Shown here: positions 582-9,892 of the stretch, one piece after another | Position numbering within the stretch: the stretch's first letter is position 1 | Layout of the letters: every line of letters starts with the position of its first letter | Source of the DNA: Ktedonobacteraceae bacterium | Lineage (GTDB): Bacteria > Chloroflexota > Ktedonobacteria > Ktedonobacterales > Ktedonobacteraceae | Length of the DNA: 39,631 nucleotides | NCBI GenBank assembly: GCA_019240835.1 | Contig: JAFAXQ010000290.1 | Location: forward strand, 1-39,631 | Direction of reading: 5' to 3' | Made by a program: the position numbers and the translations under genes | Notes under the pieces: model-generated | Databases searched by the model: none | What the model was told of the DNA's origin: nothing | Seen by the model: only the letters and a program-made list of their open reading frames with translations

Positions 582-2321
582 ATGAAACACCCTAGAGTTT
601 GGGACTATGAAACGACACTGCCAAAAAAAGAACGTAAGATGCGTGGCCACTTCTCGACTCCTTTTCCTTTGGTCGAGCAGATACTCGATGCATGTGGCTA
701 TACGCTCGAAAACGATCTTACGCGGTTGTGTGTTCTCGACCCCGCCTGTGGTAGCGGCAATTTCCTCTTAGGAGCTGCCCGTCGTCTGCTCGCATCTGGG
801 CTACGCGGCAGGCTTACGCCTCATGCACTCTTGACTACCTTGCAGCGCAACCTCTGGGGTTTTGATCCTGATCCTGTAGCCTGCTTTCTTGCGGAGATGC
901 AGATGCGCGAACTGCTCTCTTGTGCCGACCTGCAGGAAGCACATCCACACGGTATGTCCTCAGTGCGTTTCCATATTCACCAGGCTGATGGGCTTACACT
1001 GCCTTGGGAGGAACGCGCACCAGTTGATATATTTCTGGCTAACCCTCCTTACCTCGCTATCAAGAACAACGATCTGAGCGGCTATCAATCGGCACAACAT
1101 CGTGGGCAGGTCGATAGTTACCTGCTTTTTCTTGATCTAGCTCTGCAAGTAGTACGCCCTGACGGCTGGATCTGCTTAGTGCTGCCGGATCCTGTTCTAG
1201 CGCGAAGCAATGCGGCCCAGCAACGAGGGCGTTTGCTCGCCGATACCACAGTGCATCACCTCTGGCACTTGTCTGAGGTCTTTCCAGCACAGGTCGGTGC
1301 TGTAGTCATCATCGCGCAGAAGCACCCGCCTAGGCAGAGTCATAGTGTGTCATGGATACGCAGTAAATGGATGCAAGCCGCACTACCAGTAACAACGCAA
1401 CTATCTCAGGTTCCTCAACACCTACTACGTAGCCAGCCTCATGCTGAACTGCGCTATTTGCTCAGCAGCAAACATGACACGCTTGTCGGACGCTTGCATG
1501 CATCTGTATGCACTACCTCTACTGCTGAGAATGGCCAATTTGTTCCACTTGAGCACATCGTCTCCATCCGTCGCGGTGAAGAGCTAGGCAAGAAGACAAA
1601 GTTGCTTGCCAAAACCCCGCCCACCGACAAGGGTGTATGGTATCCCGTCTTGCTTGGAGGGGTCGATGTACAAGCATACAAAACTCCCTGTGCTCAGTAT
1701 TGGCTTGCGCAAGATGCCATTGCCAAGCCTCTGGAGCGCTATCTCGCGCCTAAAGTTCTCGTTGTGAAGAGCACAGCACACCTGCAGGCAACATTAGATC
1801 TGCGTGGACATGTTGCACTACAGACACTTTACTTACTCAATCTACGCATTACTGAGCATAGCGACCATAAGGGAGGGTGGTGTGCTGGAAACGGAGAGCA
1901 TGGCGACCGCAAGGGAGGGTGGCATGCCGGAGATGGGGAGCATGGCGACCGCAAGGGATCGCCACTCCTATATACCCGGGAACAAGATGGGTATAGTAGT
2001 GACCGCAAGAGATGGCTATGTCAACTCTACTTTCTGCTGGCGTTGCTCAATTCGCGCCTTCTACGCGAATATGTGTATGTGTTACATACTGCCTACAAAT
2101 GGGTACAGCCACAAATAGAACAGTATGTGCTGGCGCGCCTGCCTATTCCGCTCGTCACAGCAGAGAAGAGGACGGAAATTAGTCGGCGTGCAAGGCAATT
2201 GTTGCTTGTTTACGCTGAGATATCCTCCGTTGTAGAATTGAAGGAACACAGTCACACACTGTATGAAGAGCTAGAGCTTGTTATTCGTGGGCTGTATGAA
2301 GACGCACTTTCAATCCACTAA
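582..2321 (+). CDS. Orphan adenine-specific DNA methyltransferase (TaqI/Eco57I-like)
   Basis: A 579-aa S-adenosylmethionine-dependent DNA methyltransferase, predicted to methylate N6 of adenine. Motif I (DPACGSGNFLLG) is near residue 52 and the catalytic NPPY motif (ANPPYL) near residue 153. The N-terminal KMRGHFSTPFPLVEQIL resembles the RG-x-F-x-TP entry of this family. The C-terminal half looks like a TaqI-type target-recognition domain, ending in LLALLNSRLL and IPL segments. No endonuclease domain and no adjacent restriction gene are seen, so it looks like an orphan enzyme. Residues 425-478 are an in-frame repetitive insertion (see the repeat entry) in a loop of the recognition domain. No clear Shine-Dalgarno site precedes 582; the ATG near 639 is an alternative start. 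It is also distantly like PglX/type IIG methylases but is much shorter. Confidence 0.85.
   Translation: MKHPRVWDYETTLPKKERKMRGHFSTPFPLVEQILDACGYTLENDLTRLCVLDPACGSGNFLLGAARRLLASGLRGRLTPHALLTTLQRNLWGFDPDPVACFLAEMQMRELLSCADLQEAHPHGMSSVRFHIHQADGLTLPWEERAPVDIFLANPPYLAIKNNDLSGYQSAQHRGQVDSYLLFLDLALQVVRPDGWICLVLPDPVLARSNAAQQRGRLLADTTVHHLWHLSEVFPAQVGAVVIIAQKHPPRQSHSVSWIRSKWMQAALPVTTQLSQVPQHLLRSQPHAELRYLLSSKHDTLVGRLHASVCTTSTAENGQFVPLEHIVSIRRGEELGKKTKLLAKTPPTDKGVWYPVLLGGVDVQAYKTPCAQYWLAQDAIAKPLERYLAPKVLVVKSTAHLQATLDLRGHVALQTLYLLNLRITEHSDHKGGWCAGNGEHGDRKGGWHAGDGEHGDRKGSPLLYTREQDGYSSDRKRWLCQLYFLLALLNSRLLREYVYVLHTAYKWVQPQIEQYVLARLPIPLVTAEKRTEISRRARQLLLVYAEISSVVELKEHSHTLYEELELVIRGLYEDALSIH
1854..2014 (+). 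repeat. In-frame 42-bp tandem repeat with hairpin core inside the methyltransferase gene
   Basis: Two consecutive 42-bp units (1854-1895 and 1896-1937) begin GAGCAT(A/G)GCGACC and are followed by a third, partial unit from 1938. That unit closes as the hairpin-like GGCGACC-GCAAGG-GATCGCC at 1944-1963. A fourth degenerate copy of GACCGCAAG lies near 2001. The period of 14 codons keeps the frame, giving EHSDHKGGWCAGNG, EHGDRKGGWHAGDG and EHGDRKG. The GGCGA/TCGCC core resembles hairpins in intergenic DNA elsewhere in this window (8621, 20756), suggesting a dispersed palindromic repeat that entered a coding sequence. Confidence 0.8.
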
Positions 2322-2352
2322 CTGCAAGCAATAAGCTTCAAGGAGCAGCCCT

Positions 2353-2775
2353 ATGGTTGATACTCGTCCAATTCGCGTATTGGTCGCTAAGCCAGGACTC
2401 GATGGACATGATCGTGGTGCGAAAATAATCGTTCGTGCTTTGCGCGATGCTGGCATGGAGGTCATCTATACTGGCATTCGCCAGACCCCAGAAATGATCG
2501 TAGAAGCGGCTATTCAAGAAGACGTGGACGCTATTCTTATGAGCATCCTCTCCGGTGCTCACATGGCCCTTTTCCCCAGGGTGATGGAGCTGCTCAAGCA
2601 CAACAATGTCGATGACATCCTCGTTGCCGCGGGTGGCATTCTGCCCGACGAAGATATTCCAGCGATTAAAGCGATGGGCATCAAAGGGTGCTTTGGCCCC
2701 GGCACTTCGACAGAAGAGATCATCAAGTTTGTGCGCGAGAATATACATCCAGAGCGCCTGAAGGCTGAGGTATAG
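2353..2775 (+). CDS. Methylmalonyl-CoA mutase small (cobalamin-binding) subunit
   Basis: This 140-aa protein is the B12-binding domain of an acyl-CoA mutase. It carries the DxHxxG motif (DGHDRG, residues about 17-22), whose His is the lower axial ligand of cobalamin. The later ILSG and GGILPDED segments are typical of the Rossmann-like B12 domain (S-x-L and GG motifs). It lacks the TIM-barrel substrate domain, so it would work with a separate catalytic subunit that is not in this window. The start is supported by AAGGAG about 9 nt upstream. The mutase GTPase chaperone gene follows after only 6 nt, a classic pairing, so the two are almost certainly one operon. Methylmalonyl-CoA is the usual substrate, but isobutyryl-CoA or ethylmalonyl-CoA mutases have very similar small subunits. 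Confidence 0.88.
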
Positions 2776-2781
2776 CACGCC

Positions 2782-3741
2782 TTGCAAAACATTGTTCAAC
2801 GTCTGTTGGATGGGGACCGTCGTGCTCTTGCGCGTATGATCACACTGATCGAGAGTGAGGTCCCTGCGGCGCATCGCTATCTTGCAGAGCTGCATCGGCA
2901 CGCTGGTCGTGCGCATATTATCGGAGTAACAGGCGCACCGGGTGCTGGAAAGAGCACACTTGTCACCCAGTTCGTACGAGAACTGCGCCATCGGCAACAC
3001 AAAGTCGGCGTAGTGGCCATTGATCCAAGCAGCCCTTTCACAGGTGGCGCTCTGCTGGGTGACCGTATCCGCATGATGGAACTGGCGGGCGACCCCAACG
3101 TCTTCATTCGCAGCATGGCGAGTCGTGGCAGCCCTGGTGGCCTTGCCTCCTCAACAGGCGATGTCATACGTGCTATGGGCGCTGCTGGTTTCGACCCCAT
3201 TATCATCGAAACTGTCGGCACCGGGCAGGCCGAAGTAGAGGTCATGCACAGTGCCCACACCGTGGTCGTCGTCTGCGCCCCTGGCATGGGCGACGAGATA
3301 CAGGCCATCAAAGCAGGCATTCTAGAGATTGCCGACATCTTCGTTGTCAGCAAAGCCGACAAACCTGGCGCAGATCAGGCTGCCGCCCAACTCTCCATGC
3401 TACTCAGCCTCGACCCCAATCGCCGTAAAGGGCCGTGGCGTATCCCCATCCTCAAGACCTCCGCCCTCAAAAACCAAGGCATCGTAGAGGTCGTCGATGC
3501 TATGCGGCAGCACCTCGCAGTTCTCAAAGAGAGCGGTCTGCTTGCCCAACGGGCGCAGCGCCAGGTGCGTAGCGAAGTCCAAGCTCTCGTCCTTCATGCT
3601 GTCATGCACGCCCTCAAAAGGCGTGTCAGCGAAGACGAGTGGAACGCTCTCATCGAAGCTATTACTACGGGTGAGCGGGATCCGTATAGTGTTGCTCGTG
3701 AGTTGTTGGAGCACATGGGCTTACAAATGGAGCAGACATAG
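2782..3741 (+). CDS. meaB: MeaB/ArgK-family GTPase, acyl-CoA mutase chaperone
   Basis: A 319-aa G3E-type GTPase that loads and protects adenosylcobalamin in methylmalonyl-CoA mutase (human MMAA, Methylobacterium MeaB). The Walker A motif GAPGAGKSTL is at about residues 51-60. The family block DPSSPFTGGALLGDRIRM, the switch segment ETVGTGQAEVEV and the base-recognition motif SKADKPGAD all follow in order. The start codon is TTG at 2782, 6 nt after the stop of the B12 subunit. The N-terminal sequence from here (RLLDGDRRALARMITLIE) matches the expected N-terminus, so TTG is preferred to any later ATG. The tight spacing suggests translational coupling with the mutase subunit. Confidence 0.93.
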   Translation: MQNIVQRLLDGDRRALARMITLIESEVPAAHRYLAELHRHAGRAHIIGVTGAPGAGKSTLVTQFVRELRHRQHKVGVVAIDPSSPFTGGALLGDRIRMMELAGDPNVFIRSMASRGSPGGLASSTGDVIRAMGAAGFDPIIIETVGTGQAEVEVMHSAHTVVVVCAPGMGDEIQAIKAGILEIADIFVVSKADKPGADQAAAQLSMLLSLDPNRRKGPWRIPILKTSALKNQGIVEVVDAMRQHLAVLKESGLLAQRAQRQVRSEVQALVLHAVMHALKRRVSEDEWNALIEAITTGERDPYSVARELLEHMGLQMEQT

Positions 3742-3866
3742 AAGCCTCGTGTAGCAATTGACAAAAGAGCAGAGTAACGATATCATCAATACCGTTGAAG
3801 TTCTCTCGCTCGAAATTTCGGGCGTAAAGCGAACTTGAAAAACAAAAAACTCTGGGGTAAAGTGGA

Positions 3867-4298
3867 ATGGAAGATTATCATGCTGCTTTCTTACAGCGCA
3901 CTATGGATGTGACCATCTTAGATACGAATGGTAGGCGTATAGCCGCTATCTACTTTGGCGGTGTTGTCATTGAGTGCCTTCTTAAGCATATAATACTTAA
4001 CTCCTTGCCAAAGGGCGCAAGAAAAGAATGGAAAACTGACACCTGTGACCCAGGTCATACTATCACCAACCCTGGGCACAGCTATCAAGAAGCATTGAAC
4101 CGTCACAACCGATTGCGATCACGTATACAGCAGTTCCCAGTTGTAGTAGGTTGGTTAAACGACGTTGAGAATCCAGAAGGCCATTTCATCAACATGCGTT
4201 ATGCGGGAAATGAACCTGACGATGAGAAATATAAACGGTGGGTAAAGTCATATCGAAGTCTTATGGGTTGGTTACGGGCACAAGCTACCAAACTATGA
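3867..4298 (+). CDS. HEPN-like small protein (predicted), partner of the KGGVGR ATPase
   Basis: A 143-aa, mostly helical protein. The segment RRIAAIYFGGVVIECLLKHII (residues 24-44) resembles helix 2 of HEPN domains (AYYLAGYAxECxLK). A GHSYQEALNR segment and a late MRYAG motif also fit the usual HEPN order. A classical R-x4-6-H RNase motif is not obvious, so it may be a non-catalytic HEPN or have a diverged active site. It lies 125 bp after meaB and 21 bp before the likely start of the large ATPase (3 bp before the ORF-track start), so the two genes look like one cassette. Ribosome binding is weak (GGGGT or AGTGGA). The HEPN assignment is from pattern memory only. HEPN proteins are common as effectors or sensors in toxin-antitoxin and phage-defence loci. 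Confidence 0.6.
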   Translation: MEDYHAAFLQRTMDVTILDTNGRRIAAIYFGGVVIECLLKHIILNSLPKGARKEWKTDTCDPGHTITNPGHSYQEALNRHNRLRSRIQQFPVVVGWLNDVENPEGHFINMRYAGNEPDDEKYKRWVKSYRSLMGWLRAQATKL

Positions 4299-4319
4299 TA
4301 AATGAGAAGGTATAGAGAG

Positions 4320-6989
4320 ATGCAGCATACGTGGCGACCGGTGCTCAAAAAAAATATTGAGGATCGCTTCATACAACATCCGCCGGAAGAGTGGTACGAC
4401 CTGACCATCTCGACTTCAGGCTTATTGAATATAACTATTGTAAGCGAGCACTTTGCAAATATAGCTGTGCCACAACGGCGTGAACAAATTGTGGATCTTC
4501 TTCATAAGTCTGATGCTCCCACGTCAATAGGCTTTCTATCTCTTTATACAATCAGTGAGGCTGACTTTATTGGTCTTTCTGCACCACTAACTACGCAGCA
4601 GAACGGAGTCTACAGTTGGTCCGACTTGACTCAACAAGCGATAAACGCCGCCGAAGCTCCCAAAATACAACGGCGTAAGCAACGTATTCCACGTACTATC
4701 ACTTTCTACTCATTCAAAGGCGGCGTAGGCCGCACAACTGCACTTACCCATGTAGCATGGATTCTCGCGATGCGAGGGCGAAAGGTTGTTGCTATTGATT
4801 TAGATTTAGAGGCACCAGGTTTGAGTTCTTTGCTCAATCTGACCCCGACACCCGAGCACGGTATCGTAGACTACTTCTACGAACGCTCCTATCTCCCAAA
4901 GGCTATAGAACCCAGCATCTCAATTGCCGAGATTTTTGGCGAGGTTCGTATTCCCGATGCACCTGGCCGTCTCTTTATTGTCCCTGCAGGTTCCCTTGAT
5001 CTTAACTATATCACGAAAGTTGATGACCTGCGTGCATCCGCTATTACTGAACGCGGTGAGGACCTCTGGTCTATCTTTTTTCGTGAGATCACTGAACAGT
5101 TGCAACCGGATATCATTCTTGTTGACTCCCGTACAGGTATCAACGAATGGGGTGCCTTTTCTTTGCTACGAGCCGCTGACCAAGCAATTGTCTTCCTCTA
5201 TCCTAACGAGCAGAATAAACGTGGTGTCGAGCTTCTCCTTGAGGCTCTTGCAGGCCAGGTTTCTGTGCAACTAGTTTTTTCGCCTGTACCATTTGGCGAT
5301 GCGGGGATGGAGAAGGTAAAAGAATATTGGCAGGTCTTACAGAGTCGCTTAGATACAGCAACCTTTCAGCCCAATTCAGAGTTGGATGAAGATATCCAAG
5401 AGACTGAAATCCAGCCAGAAATTGCGGAGCCAATTACTGTACACTATCTCACTGAACTTGCTCTGGCCTCGGGTTATCCTGTTCAGTCACTACTATCAAA
5501 TTACATGGCTATTGCTAACGTGGTCGATGAGGATACCACTGCAATTAGCCTCGAACAGGTTCTCAGCGATAGAGACCGTCGACGCAAGATTATTGAGAGC
5601 CTTGAGTTTTCTGAGGTAAATGCTGATGATCTTGATCGTAATCGCTTTCAGCGAACCCGTGACTTTGAGCGCTTCCTTGACGACACTACCTGCCTTATCC
5701 GAGGGCTAAAAGGTACAGGCAAGACAGCTCTTTATAAGCTTTTACTAAAATATGAGGACGTTGCTCGGGAGTGGTCAAAGCGGCTAGATCGCGTGACTTG
5801 CCTATCTGGACACGGTGGATTTCGCATTCGTCCGACTAGGGCTGAATTCGAACTGCTTGATCAGGCCATAGAGCAAAATGGTGGATCCTGGGAAGCATTC
5901 TGGCGTTCTTATTTGCTACTGCGTATGCATCTGGAAAATCGTCTTCAGCAATTTCTTAAAGGCAATAAAGATAAGTTTAGTCAGCTTCGATCTATTCTCA
6001 ATAAGGTACCGAGAGGAGTTGATCGCTGGCAAATAGAACATACCCAGACACTAGTAGAAATGGCAGTGAATGCCGAACTAAACTTGCTGGCAAAGGATGC
6101 ACTGGATGATATCAATAGACAGTTACGAAAAAGCAGTCAAGCCCTCTGGTTTCTTTATGATGACCTAGACGAGGATCTTCTTGAAAAGGGTAATCTACGT
6201 AAGAGGGCGTTGACAGGTTTGTTTCAACTTGTGCAAGCCTCTGACGCTCGTCGATTGACCTCTATTCGTTTCAAGATATTCCTGCGTGAAGATATCTGGA
6301 CTCGACTTGTCTTTGATAACAAGAGCCATCTCAATGGGCGTGATGTCATTTTGCAATGGACCCGTCTAGATTTTCTACGCTTAGCATTGCGTCAGGCACA
6401 GCAGTCAGAAGAGTTCAGGGATTTAGTGGACCGCTTTGCACCTGTTGAGAATATCGACCAGGCAGATGAAGCATTGATTGATAGAGCACTTCAGATATTA
6501 TGGGGAACTCGGCGAGAGCCAAATTTAAAATCTAAGAGTGTATCTAGGTGGGTTTATGATCGACTCACAGACTCCGGCGGAACCACGTTTCCGCGTAGTT
6601 TGAACAGTTTACTCAAAGAAGCCAAAAACTACGAGTTGACCTCCCATCGAAGTCAACCAGATCGCTTGCTTCAACCCAAATCACTTAATCAAGGACTATT
6701 TGCAGCGTCTCAGAAACGCTGTGCAGAAGTGAGAGAAGAATATCCTGAACTCGGACCATTTCTTGATGCACTTGTAGGTATTGAAGTTCTGGCGTCCGAG
6801 CAGAAGTTGAGTGAGGTGTGGCAAAAGACGGCACAAGGAATCTCATCTACATTTAGCGGTTTTGTTGACTTCTTGCTGAGTATCGGACTTATCGGGCTTG
6901 CTGAACTACAAGAAAAAGAACAAGGCTACCGATTCGCTGAAATTTACACTTATGGCTTCAATATGTATCGTGGAAAAAGGAAATATTAA
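4320..6989 (+). CDS. KGGVGR-variant ParA/MinD ATPase fused to a second P-loop ATPase domain
   Basis: A large (~889-aa) two-engine ATPase of unknown function, related to proteins databases call KGGVGR-motif variant ATPases. The SIMIBI (ParA/MinD) domain carries FKGGVGRTT near ORF residue 140, in which the P-loop lysine of KGGxGKT is replaced by arginine, then DLDLEAPGLSS (A' motif) and ILVDSRTG (Walker B). A second P-loop, RGLKGTGKTALYKLL, is near residue 468, with an acidic Walker-B-like WFLYDDLDED near 617. This half resembles P-loop ATPases of the Sll1717 type found near defence genes. The first ~90 residues form a separate small domain (see findings). I prefer ATG 4320 because GAGAAGG lies 9 nt upstream; the track start at 4302 has no ribosome-binding site. 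It sits 21 bp behind the HEPN-like gene. Confidence 0.75.
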   Translation: MQHTWRPVLKKNIEDRFIQHPPEEWYDLTISTSGLLNITIVSEHFANIAVPQRREQIVDLLHKSDAPTSIGFLSLYTISEADFIGLSAPLTTQQNGVYSWSDLTQQAINAAEAPKIQRRKQRIPRTITFYSFKGGVGRTTALTHVAWILAMRGRKVVAIDLDLEAPGLSSLLNLTPTPEHGIVDYFYERSYLPKAIEPSISIAEIFGEVRIPDAPGRLFIVPAGSLDLNYITKVDDLRASAITERGEDLWSIFFREITEQLQPDIILVDSRTGINEWGAFSLLRAADQAIVFLYPNEQNKRGVELLLEALAGQVSVQLVFSPVPFGDAGMEKVKEYWQVLQSRLDTATFQPNSELDEDIQETEIQPEIAEPITVHYLTELALASGYPVQSLLSNYMAIANVVDEDTTAISLEQVLSDRDRRRKIIESLEFSEVNADDLDRNRFQRTRDFERFLDDTTCLIRGLKGTGKTALYKLLLKYEDVAREWSKRLDRVTCLSGHGGFRIRPTRAEFELLDQAIEQNGGSWEAFWRSYLLLRMHLENRLQQFLKGNKDKFSQLRSILNKVPRGVDRWQIEHTQTLVEMAVNAELNLLAKDALDDINRQLRKSSQALWFLYDDLDEDLLEKGNLRKRALTGLFQLVQASDARRLTSIRFKIFLREDIWTRLVFDNKSHLNGRDVILQWTRLDFLRLALRQAQQSEEFRDLVDRFAPVENIDQADEALIDRALQILWGTRREPNLKSKSVSRWVYDRLTDSGGTTFPRSLNSLLKEAKNYELTSHRSQPDRLLQPKSLNQGLFAASQKRCAEVREEYPELGPFLDALVGIEVLASEQKLSEVWQKTAQGISSTFSGFVDFLLSIGLIGLAELQEKEQGYRFAEIYTYGFNMYRGKRKY

Positions 6990-7022
6990 TCGAAAAGAAT
7001 ACTTCAACATTCCCCCAAAGTC

Positions 7023-7221
7023 TTACTCTCCAATAGTCGCCAGTTGAAAGCGCAGCCATGCTACATCTGTGCTTTTCCCATACAGGCTGGCTTCCAGTTC
7101 CTGGCAGAGCTGACAGAGCCGCTGCATATTCACACCCGTCTCGACTTGCTTGAGGATATCAAAGGCGGAGAGTGCCGCTTGTCAGTGGAAGAGATATTCC
7201 CTTCGTACCCTCTTCTGTCAT
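7023..7221 (-). pseudogene. Small ORF coupled to the XRE-TPR regulator, apparently frameshifted
   Basis: An ATG overlaps the regulator stop codon as TAATG, the arrangement of translational coupling. It reads 20 codons (MTEEGTKGISLPLTSGTLRL) to a TGA near 7161. In another frame the same stretch continues as a convincing helical protein end (SAFDILKQVETG ... WLRFQLATIGE) to a TAA at 7023-7025. A single frameshift near 7161-7185 would join the parts into about 66 aa. It may be a broken gene, a sequencing error, a programmed frameshift, or simply a real 20-aa peptide. I do not recognise the family. Too short and split for the ORF track. Confidence 0.4.
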
Positions 7222-8522
7222 TACTCTTCCTCTAACACGAGCAAGCGGCGTCGCTTCCTGTCAACCAACCTTGCGCGTAACTGTGCCAACTCGATGGCGT
7301 CAGCATAGGTGGGATGTTGGCTCAGAGAACGTACCACCTGCCCAACGCGAAATATCCCAAGCTGAGATTTTAACTGCTCGAAGATGTCAAGGGCAAATCC
7401 TACAAGCTCCGTGGCATAGGGGTAGTGTCCCTGTATTTCTTCTGCCATCGCTCGGTAGAGATGATTGAATGCAAGAGGTCGTGAGTCTGGAAGAAATGCT
7501 TGGTAGTTCTTGTTCAGGGTATTCAATGCTTCAGTTGCATCCTTCGCCCGCACAAACCCGAGACCACGTATGTTCTGAACCCATCCCTCGTTAACAGGAC
7601 CAAGGCGATATAATGTTCCTTCTAGCTCTCCCGTCCCTACCAGCTTGCCGGAGCGATCAAGCAGGCGTAGTGCTTCTGCTTTGTCCGTCTTATCCTGTGC
7701 TCTCACGATAAATGTTGCCCCTGCTCTACCAGAAAAAGCTGCAAGCAGCGGTGTCTGTGAGCGTTGCGCATACGGCAATCCTGCCTGGAAGTCCGCTATT
7801 GCCGCTTCCACGTCGCCTGGGTTTCCTCGTTCAAAATAGACTGATCCACGTTCCATATAAGCAGCGGCTACCAGTTCAGGGTGTCTGATCTCGGGGACGT
7901 TGAGGCTGAGGGCCAGTTCGATGGCACTATCAGCATTGCGGAAGGCCGTTGGATACGCACGTCCACTACGGGCAACATCTACAGCCAGCAAGTAGTAGCC
8001 TAATAGAATATGTTGTCTTTCCAGTCGTTCTTGCCCGCTAAATAAAGAGAGGCTGTAACGCTGACTCCTGATATCCTGCTCAATCGCGTCTAACCTCTCC
8101 CGTGCTGTCGTAGTTTCATGTTCTGTCCAGAGAGCTGCGAGCGCTTGCTGTAACGCTTCAACAGACTTGACAACGGTGAGTTGTGCGGTGGTATGTGCTG
8201 CTGCTCCTGCCACGTGTGGCGCTGTAAGTGCGGGCATGCCTCGAAAGGTAGTGATCCCTAACAAAAATGGAGGGATACGAAGAGCCGAGGCAAGCGCACG
8301 GCGACGTGACATAGAATCAAGGAAGAGATGTTCATTTTCCATGCGTTCAACGGTCCTTTTCGTCACTCTTAGCACTCTTGCAAGTGCCTTGGTATTCATC
8401 TTACGTATTTCGCGGAAGTATTTGAGCACTTGCCCTGGTTTGGGCAAGCCGTCCTCGCCTTCCTCAAAGAGATGTCCATAGACGACTTTCCAGTCTTGAG
8501 TTGGTTGTACTGTTTCTCCCAT
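7221..8522 (-). CDS. XRE-family transcriptional regulator with TPR-like C-terminal domain
   Basis: A 433-aa predicted DNA-binding regulator. The N-terminal helix-turn-helix occupies about residues 30-90 (LKYFREIRKMNTKALARVLRVTKRTVERMENEH, then a helix ending in ALRIPPFLLGI). The remainder is alpha-helical with TPR-like pairs (YMERGSVYFERGNPGDVEAAIADFQ, LYRAMAEEIQGHYPYATELVGFALDIFEQL), a layout shared by peptide- or ligand-sensing regulators. It is transcribed away from the zinc-protein gene and towards the KGGVGR gene. A small ORF overlaps its stop. The perfect inverted repeat GTGCTGA-TAAT-TCAGCAC lies 21 bp upstream of its start and is a plausible auto-operator. The signal sensed is unknown. 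Confidence 0.78.
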   Translation of the reverse strand: MGETVQPTQDWKVVYGHLFEEGEDGLPKPGQVLKYFREIRKMNTKALARVLRVTKRTVERMENEHLFLDSMSRRRALASALRIPPFLLGITTFRGMPALTAPHVAGAAAHTTAQLTVVKSVEALQQALAALWTEHETTTARERLDAIEQDIRSQRYSLSLFSGQERLERQHILLGYYLLAVDVARSGRAYPTAFRNADSAIELALSLNVPEIRHPELVAAAYMERGSVYFERGNPGDVEAAIADFQAGLPYAQRSQTPLLAAFSGRAGATFIVRAQDKTDKAEALRLLDRSGKLVGTGELEGTLYRLGPVNEGWVQNIRGLGFVRAKDATEALNTLNKNYQAFLPDSRPLAFNHLYRAMAEEIQGHYPYATELVGFALDIFEQLKSQLGIFRVGQVVRSLSQHPTYADAIELAQLRARLVDRKRRRLLVLEEE

Positions 8523-9139: not shown

Positions 9140-9224
9140 GTAGGGGCATGATCTATCTTGCCCAAGGAGTGGGGTCAGCTATCCCCCCGGCCCCCCCCTT
9201 GGGCGTGATAAGTCATGTCCCTAC
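9140..9224. terminator. Long imperfect inverted repeat between convergent genes (bidirectional terminator candidate)
   Basis: The 28-nt arms (about 9140-9167 and 9197-9224) pair at about 23 positions around a C-rich centre. The right arm contains the stop codon of the Q-rich gene (9221-9223). It separates two convergent genes. The exact length of the C tract fixes the arm coordinates to within 1 nt. Confidence 0.6.
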
Positions 9225-9892
9225 TGGTTGCCTCCGAACATACCGCCCAGCATATCGCCAGCCTTCTTCTCAACTTGGTTCTCTAAATTGTCAAGAATGC
9301 CAGAAGCGGCCTCTTTAGCCTGCTGTGTGTACTGTGAGCCGCCAGGAATTTTGTTGCCGAACTGGTCGATGGCCTGATCAATCTGCTGTTCTGCCATCTC
9401 GCGTGGCTGATGAAGTGGACCATGCTGCTGCTGCGGGTTCTGGCCCTGACCATACTGATCCTGTTGTTGACCGTATTGGCCGCCTTGGCCCTGACCATAC
9501 TGATCCTGTTGTTGGCCATATTGGCCACCTTGACCTTGACCAGATTGGTCCTGCTGCTGACCGTACTGACCACCTTGGCCCTGACCAGGTTGGTCCTGCT
9601 GCTGACCATACTGATCCTGTTGTTGGCCATATTGGCCACCTTGACCTTGACCAGATTGGTCCTGCTGCTGACCGTACTGACCCCCTTGGCCTTGACCATA
9701 CTGACCCCCCTGCGAACCATACTGATCCTGTTGTTGGCCATACTGACCCCCTTGGCCTTGACCGTATTGGTCCTGCTGCTGACCGTACTGACCGCTCTGT
9801 GAGCCGTACTGGTCCTGCTGCTGACCATATTGACCTTGACCACCTTGCTGGCTCTGGCCTTGATTGTATTGGTCATACTCCTGATTGGGCAT
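9221..9892 (-). CDS. Q/G/Y-rich low-complexity (prion-like) repeat protein
   Basis: A 223-aa protein whose first ~150 residues are almost entirely Q, G, Y, D and S. It is built from repeats such as QYGQQQDQ and SGQGQGG (11- and 8-residue modules in varying order), with at least ten QYGQQQDQ-type units. The composition resembles prion-like or phase-separating domains of the FUS type, with regularly spaced tyrosines. The last ~65 residues are different: helical and charged (QIDQAIDQFGNKIPGG ... QAKEAASGILDNLENQVEKKAGDML), like the small DKIPGG helical proteins related to MT0933-type antitoxins. No signal peptide is seen, so it is probably cytoplasmic. It is divergent from the Fur gene with a ~260-bp gap. 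The reverse frame gives long false ORFs because of the repeats. Confidence 0.7.
   Translation of the reverse strand: MPNQEYDQYNQGQSQQGGQGQYGQQQDQYGSQSGQYGQQQDQYGQGQGGQYGQQQDQYGSQGGQYGQGQGGQYGQQQDQSGQGQGGQYGQQQDQYGQQQDQPGQGQGGQYGQQQDQSGQGQGGQYGQQQDQYGQGQGGQYGQQQDQYGQGQNPQQQHGPLHQPREMAEQQIDQAIDQFGNKIPGGSQYTQQAKEAASGILDNLENQVEKKAGDMLGGMFGGNQ

Follow-up and report, generated by a model that had tools for sequence, protein, structure and literature searches.

The window (the whole stretch of 39,631 nucleotides of Ktedonobacteraceae DNA that was analyzed) contains two adjacent genes on the same strand, a small one and a large one (Table 1). The positions of both open reading frames agree with those in an earlier note on this DNA, which had been made from the letters alone and had proposed a self-contained cassette between meaB and a regulator. 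Both flanking genes were confirmed: meaB lies upstream of the cassette, and a gene for a TPR/HTH regulator lies downstream on the opposite strand. The spacing of 21 bp given in that note holds if the large gene starts at the ATG at 4320, and does not hold if it starts at the ATG at 4302, which leaves a gap of 3 bp. Nearly all intact homologous loci have gaps of between -4 and +21 bp, so the two genes appear to be translationally coupled.

Table 1. Positions of the cassette, its genes, and the domains and motifs they encode (numbering of the window).
Feature	Positions	Strand	Evidence
Cassette slot; low GC, not present at this locus in the sister species	3713-6993		Alignment to G228 (L155)
Small HEPN-T/AbiV-like protein (PDC-M28A-like), 143 aa, predicted	3867-4298	+	PADLOC, Pfam matches of the family, AF2, Foldseek
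E36-C37-x-x-K40 (Ex3K of HEPN helix 2)	3972-3986	+	Invariant in 34 relatives (alignment)
His71, alternative histidine between helices 2 and 3	4077-4079	+	Invariant (alignment); alternative-site model (PMC3710099)
Arg111-Tyr112; motif Arg of HEPN, positions +5 to +7 lacking His	4197-4202	+	Invariant (alignment)
Large protein, 895 aa: BolA-like, KGGVGR SIMIBI and Sll1717-family P-loop ATPase (PDC-M28B and C fused)	4302-6989	+	NCBIfam, PADLOC
BolA-like domain at the N-terminus (residues about 10-90), lacking the Fe-S-ligand His of BolA	4329-4571	+	PDB profile, Pfam, hhalign
KGGVGR-variant SIMIBI (MinD/ParA-like) domain	4689-5249	+	NF047398; Foldseek to MinD/ParA/Soj, probability 1.00
Deviant Walker A KGGVGRTT, residues 139-146, Arg144 for the P-loop Lys	4716-4739	+	Arg conserved in all 26 fused relatives
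Second P-loop ATPase domain (Sll1717 family), C-terminal region modeled as winged-helix-like	5628-6935	+	NF047389; AF2 secondary structure
Canonical Walker A G-L-K-G-T-G-K-T, residues 468-475	5703-5726	+	G468, K470-K474 invariant
Walker B-like WFLYDDLDED, residues 616-625	6147-6176	+	D620, L622 invariant
C-terminal remnant of a regulator, intact in the sister species	6994-7182	-	Reverse-strand translation against the C-terminus of the L155 regulator

Insertion slot and flanking genes

The cassette is a movable, low-GC insert. Its GC content is 44-46%, versus 52%, and a genome of the same genus (G228, contig L155) aligns at 91% identity to window positions 2016-3712 and at 92% to 6994-7182, with other DNA between; the stop codon of the large gene ends 4 bp before the conserved sequence resumes. 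The comparison of GC content and of a close relative that the earlier note had proposed thus shows an insert missing from the slot of the sister species. In G228 the slot (L155:5630-6643, between meaB and the regulator) holds a gene for a 337-aa DprA/SLOG-like protein, which matches the PADLOC models PsyrA (3.7e-69) and ShosA (1.6e-38), models that DprA itself may trigger. Judging from the remnant that directly follows the insert (Table 1), the regulator seems to have been replaced at the same variable spot as the cassette.

The gene beside the remnant (window 7221-8522, reverse strand) encodes an NsdA-like TPR regulator, with paralogues of 83% and 68% identity elsewhere in the genome. Also on the reverse strand, at 9221-9892, lies the gene for a Gln/Gly-rich low-complexity protein of about 220 aa with QYGQQQDQYGQGQGG repeats. 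On the other side, positions 582-2321 (forward strand) encode a DNA methyltransferase of the N6/Eco57I-TaqI type, absent from the first reading, with short, near-identical EHGDRKGGWHAGDG-like repeats in its middle; most of it aligns with the sister species, apart from a break at 1856-2015.

Domains and conserved residues of the two proteins

By itself, the small protein matched no Pfam or NCBIfam family, and its assignment to HEPN rests on its relatives and on its fold. It matches the PADLOC model PDC-M28A (PDLC04558) with an E-value of 1.1e-4, and a relative from the same phylum matches this model at 8.1e-56. Pfam HEPN (PF05168) is matched by 18 of the 34 family members (best, 1.1e-8; the window protein itself is below significance), AbiV by five (up to 0.0066), and TIGR04498 by three (up to 5e-4), the window protein matching neither of the latter two. 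The AlphaFold2 model is all-helical (pLDDT 85), and a Foldseek search with it placed the HEPN chains 2q00, 4nqf, 1wol and Csm6′ at the top (probability 0.89-0.98); all matches with a probability of at least 0.89 were HEPN-bearing chains, with E-values that are not individually significant (best, 0.13). A sequence search of the PDB with the HEPN profile matched nothing relevant. Both the matches of the relatives and the structure prediction favor the HEPN-like character that the earlier note had suspected, and the small protein is a member of a HEPN family, with a predicted four-helix HEPN fold.

Seven residues (D14, E36, C37, K40, H71, R111, and Y112) are invariant in all 34 sequences, which share 16-64% identity with the window protein. 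The canonical RNase motif of HEPN, Rx4-6H, is absent: there is no histidine at the required spacing, and only a few of the 34 members have one. An alternative site, composed of Ex3K, an upstream histidine and the arginine of the motif, has been described for AbiV and for HEPN-T of the AF0298 type (PMC3710099), and the E36-K40-H71-R111 set fits the definition of this site, at which we predict that catalysis would take place.

The large protein starts with a domain that the first reading did not contain. In the AlphaFold2 model its first ∼95 residues are ordered helix-strand-strand-helix-strand-helix, and a PDB search with a profile of 17 N-termini returned 15 matches at E ≤ 1, all of them BolA proteins (best, 9.6e-4). 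Pfam BolA matched 15 of the 17 N-termini at E < 1, weakly (best, 0.0017; window protein, 0.021); in genome-wide scans with this model the large gene ranks second in many genomes, after the true BolA, and it ranks first (0.075) in the genome of the window, where no true BolA was seen. A profile-profile comparison (hhalign) with genuine cyanobacterial BolA scored 29.8, whereas 60 column-shuffled controls scored at most 13.9. What the head has in common with BolA is the profile over the beta2-alpha2-beta3 half, and the order of elements. The histidine that is the conserved Fe-S ligand of BolA (the HALAL or HALA segment) is missing, replaced by GFLSL or a similar segment in 17 of 17 N-termini, so an Fe-S role in partnership with glutaredoxin (Grx) is unlikely; KH-like binding of nucleic acid or protein would be an alternative role.

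Two P-loop domains follow, as the earlier note had claimed. NCBIfam assigns residues 130-316 to NF047398 (AAA_KGGVGR; 1.4e-50) and residues 443-878 to NF047389 (P-loop ATPase, Sll1717 family; 4e-39), both well above cut-off, and in PADLOC the protein matches PDC-M28B (3.9e-40) and PDC-M28C (2.5e-29). The AlphaFold2 model (mean pLDDT 82) matched MinD, ParA and Soj in Foldseek with a probability of 1.00. The KGGVGRTT motif that had been read as a deviant SIMIBI P-loop is indeed present: R144 stands where the KGGxGK[ST] Walker A of MinD/ParA has a lysine, the fold and family being otherwise those of SIMIBI MinD/ParA. Since G140-G141-V142-G143-R144 are invariant across 26 fused relatives, far beyond chance, arginine in place of the P-loop lysine is a family trait. 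The second P-loop, GLKGTGKTAL (residues 468-477), was equally confirmed, and its GxKGTGK core (G468, K470-K474) and D620 of WFLYDDLD are invariant in the same 26 relatives. We infer that the first P-loop would be poor in hydrolysis and that the second would be the engine; inactive MinD/ParA-like domains are on record in other bacterial conflict systems (PMC7159879).

Linkage, occurrence and genomic context

The pairing of the two genes holds in other genomes. We collected 28 fused large genes (that of the window and those of 27 other loci, from cyanobacteria and from the phylum; one of them truncated at the end of a contig and another broken), and all 28 have a HEPN gene or its remnant directly upstream on the same strand; the cyanobacterial loci were gathered with the PDC-M28C model, so this collection was blind to HEPN. 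Conversely, a HEPN-profile search of the same genomes returned almost only cassette loci. The identities of the HEPN proteins and of the ATPases correlate across 23 loci (r = 0.95; 0 of 5000 permutations), so the partners have not been exchanged. The earlier note had made its proposal depend on this linkage, and the survey upholds it.

The distribution is patchy. The KGGVGR cut-off was passed in 8 of the 301 genomes of the phylum, and a HEPN match was found in 4 of the 29 genomes of the window's family (one of them weak and broken), the sister species having none. Because the nearest relatives of the large protein are fused cyanobacterial proteins (53-58% identity), with cassettes of its own family at about 30%, the cassette appears to have been acquired by horizontal transfer. 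A three-gene form occurs in the same phylum (L042, L043, L047), in cyanobacteria (L080, L082-L086), and on plasmids of Burkholderia, Calothrix and Enterobacter. Searches for close relatives returned no viral contigs, one distant phage match, and one genome among the genome contigs. Decay is frequent: one cyanobacterium, Chlorogloeopsis (L005), has a HEPN remnant of 44 codons beside an intact ATPase gene; at L108 the large gene is broken by a stop codon and an insert of about 1 kb, and the HEPN ORF is intact; L095 has a stop in its HEPN gene; and L087 has lost component B.

KGGVGR proteins with no HEPN gene (L046, L048, L049, L109, L112-L115) were set aside as other architectures. Among them, L109 and L112-L115 encode cousins of about 930 aa with another N-terminus, for which no HEPN gene was detected and of which those at L112-L115 are weakly Sll1717-like. 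We likewise set aside two free-standing HEPN genes from two cyanobacteria (L179:4831-5238 and L180:6350-6757), the partner of which is a different small gene: each of these related HEPN genes overlaps a conserved gene of ∼130 aa, possibly a separate toxin-antitoxin-like pair.

The earlier note had also proposed a survey of defence islands. The ORFs that adjoin the cassette are no richer in defence genes than controls, with 75 PADLOC families in 113 neighboring ORFs, as against 84 in a control set of 112 ORFs taken from comparable genomes (a crude count, since matches are not listed per protein), and we make no claim of enrichment. Some plasmid homologues do adjoin hsdR, a type III restriction gene or a TIR gene. 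Very large, uncharacterised genes lie next to the cassette at L100:68-3397, L110:7241-11959, and L111:6429-11078; a comparison with PADLOC gave no match for those of L100 and L110.

Candidate functions and relation to known systems

We put at about even the chances that the cassette is a mobile two-gene sensor-effector module, that is, an ATP-gated abortive-infection system of the HEPN type and the fused form of PDC-M28. In such a module the large protein would be the switch. Its second P-loop domain, with intact Walker A and Walker B motifs, would drive a conformational change or assembly by means of ATP, its KGGVGR domain, with arginine for the P-loop lysine, would mainly bind nucleotide or serve for docking, and its BolA-like and winged-helix-like ends would bind the trigger or nucleic acid; the large protein would hold the HEPN protein, which would act as effector. 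The two proteins would presumably form a complex that answers to a trigger and acts on an RNA target, and a defence role is plausible. In favor of this reading we counted the matches to PDC-M28A/B/C, the invariant E36-K40-H71-R111 set, the linkage and the co-divergence of the two genes, and also the patchy occurrence, the exchange of the slot with a DprA/PsyrA/ShosA-like gene, the horizontal transfer and the neighbors on plasmids; mobility, patchiness, slot exchange, plasmid neighbors and the HEPN partner are likewise what supports a defence role. Against the reading we counted the lack of enrichment among the neighbors, which gives the defence role no support, the non-significant E-values of Foldseek, the missing Rx4-6H motif, and the Chlorogloeopsis locus, in which an intact ATPase gene stands beside a mere HEPN remnant.

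The tight coupling of just two genes would also suit a toxin-antitoxin pair, in which the ATPase would be the antitoxin to a HEPN protein that is constitutively toxic, either as an RNase or by blocking translation, as has been proposed for the dyads of MAE_18760 HEPN and ParA/Soj; a HEPN and SIMIBI ATPase combination of this kind is on record as a proposal (PMC3710099), and the Chlorogloeopsis locus, where the ATPase gene survives and little is left of the HEPN gene, fits a toxin-first loss. We nevertheless regard such a pair as unlikely. The intact HEPN gene beside the broken large gene of L108 speaks against a freely lethal toxin, which would forbid this arrangement unless silent (the Chlorogloeopsis and L108 loci are one locus each, neither decisive); a double ATPase of 900 aa far exceeds the size that an antitoxin needs, and the HEPN protein is not of the MAE_18760 type that bears Rx4-6H.

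With the canonical motif missing, RNase activity of the HEPN protein may be absent, which would favor a non-catalytic adaptor or an RNA/nucleotide-binding subunit, the large ATPase being the active partner, for example in the handling of DNA or replication forks via its winged helix. The ParA/Soj-like fold of the SIMIBI domain and the winged-helix-like C-terminus are in keeping with this, as is Chlorogloeopsis, where the ATPase has persisted, at least for a time, with no intact HEPN partner and may have a role independent of it. Yet E36, K40, H71, R111, and Y112 do not vary among the 34 proteins, even at 16-20% identity; such constancy points to an active or ligand site and not to a scaffold, and makes the adaptor improbable in our view. 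We give still less credence to a non-defence accessory regulator, partition-like (plasmid or chromosome) or concerned with stress, that is mobile by chance gene transfer: the MinD/ParA-like domain and the immediate neighbors without defence enrichment would be expected of it, but the cassette is mostly chromosomal, patchy and repeatedly decayed, has a HEPN partner instead of a ParB-like one, and matches a catalogue of defence candidates. Also possible, though less likely than the sensor-effector module, is a separate kind of immune switch in which a BolA-derived sensor head, a SIMIBI pseudo-ATPase and an active AAA-like engine gate a HEPN effector with a non-canonical His/Arg/Glu site; if true, such a mechanism would be unrepresented among characterised anti-phage systems.

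The earlier note had called the system undescribed, which does not stand: its parts match PDC-M28A/B/C and two named NCBIfam families, and a dyad of MAE_18760 HEPN and a ParA/Soj ATPase has been proposed as a toxin-antitoxin (Anantharaman et al., 2013; PMC3710099). Entries under PDC are listed as candidates for phage defence and are uncharacterised (PMC12482510, PMC11514479); our literature search found no paper on PDC-M28, KGGVGR or Sll1717, no phage assay of PDC-M28, and no report of a BolA-like domain in such a context. Two questions become testable, namely whether PDC-M28 protects against phage, and whether a HEPN protein that lacks Rx4-6H and has the alternative histidine cleaves RNA.

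With the MAE_18760 dyad the window pair shares a HEPN gene adjoining a gene for a SIMIBI ParA-like ATPase; unlike that dyad, in which HEPN keeps Rx4-6H, it has a HEPN protein without this motif and an ATPase with two P-loop domains. The small protein for its part can be compared with HEPN-T (PF05168, AF0298 type) and AbiV, which have in common with it the Ex3K, the alternative histidine in the insert between helices 2 and 3, and the arginine without the histidine of Rx4-6H; the small protein differs from them in adjoining a SIMIBI/AAA ATPase and in its additional invariant C37, D14, and Y112. NF047398 and NF047389 are both present in the large protein, but they are names of domains, with no system or function attached, and the fusion to a BolA-like head and the HEPN partner lie outside them. 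The cassette has all three components of PDC-M28, in the order A-B-C; PDC-M28 consists of three separate genes, whereas here B and C are joined in one ORF with a recognisably BolA-like N-terminus, so that by sequence the cassette is a fused, two-gene form of this catalogued candidate. New here are the fused variant and the BolA-like head, beside which the non-canonical HEPN site is a further notable detail, and the uncharacterised PDC-M28 thereby gains an anatomy: a compact two-gene form, a BolA-like head, an invariant Arg-for-Lys P-loop, a second ATPase predicted to be active, and a predicted alternative HEPN site.
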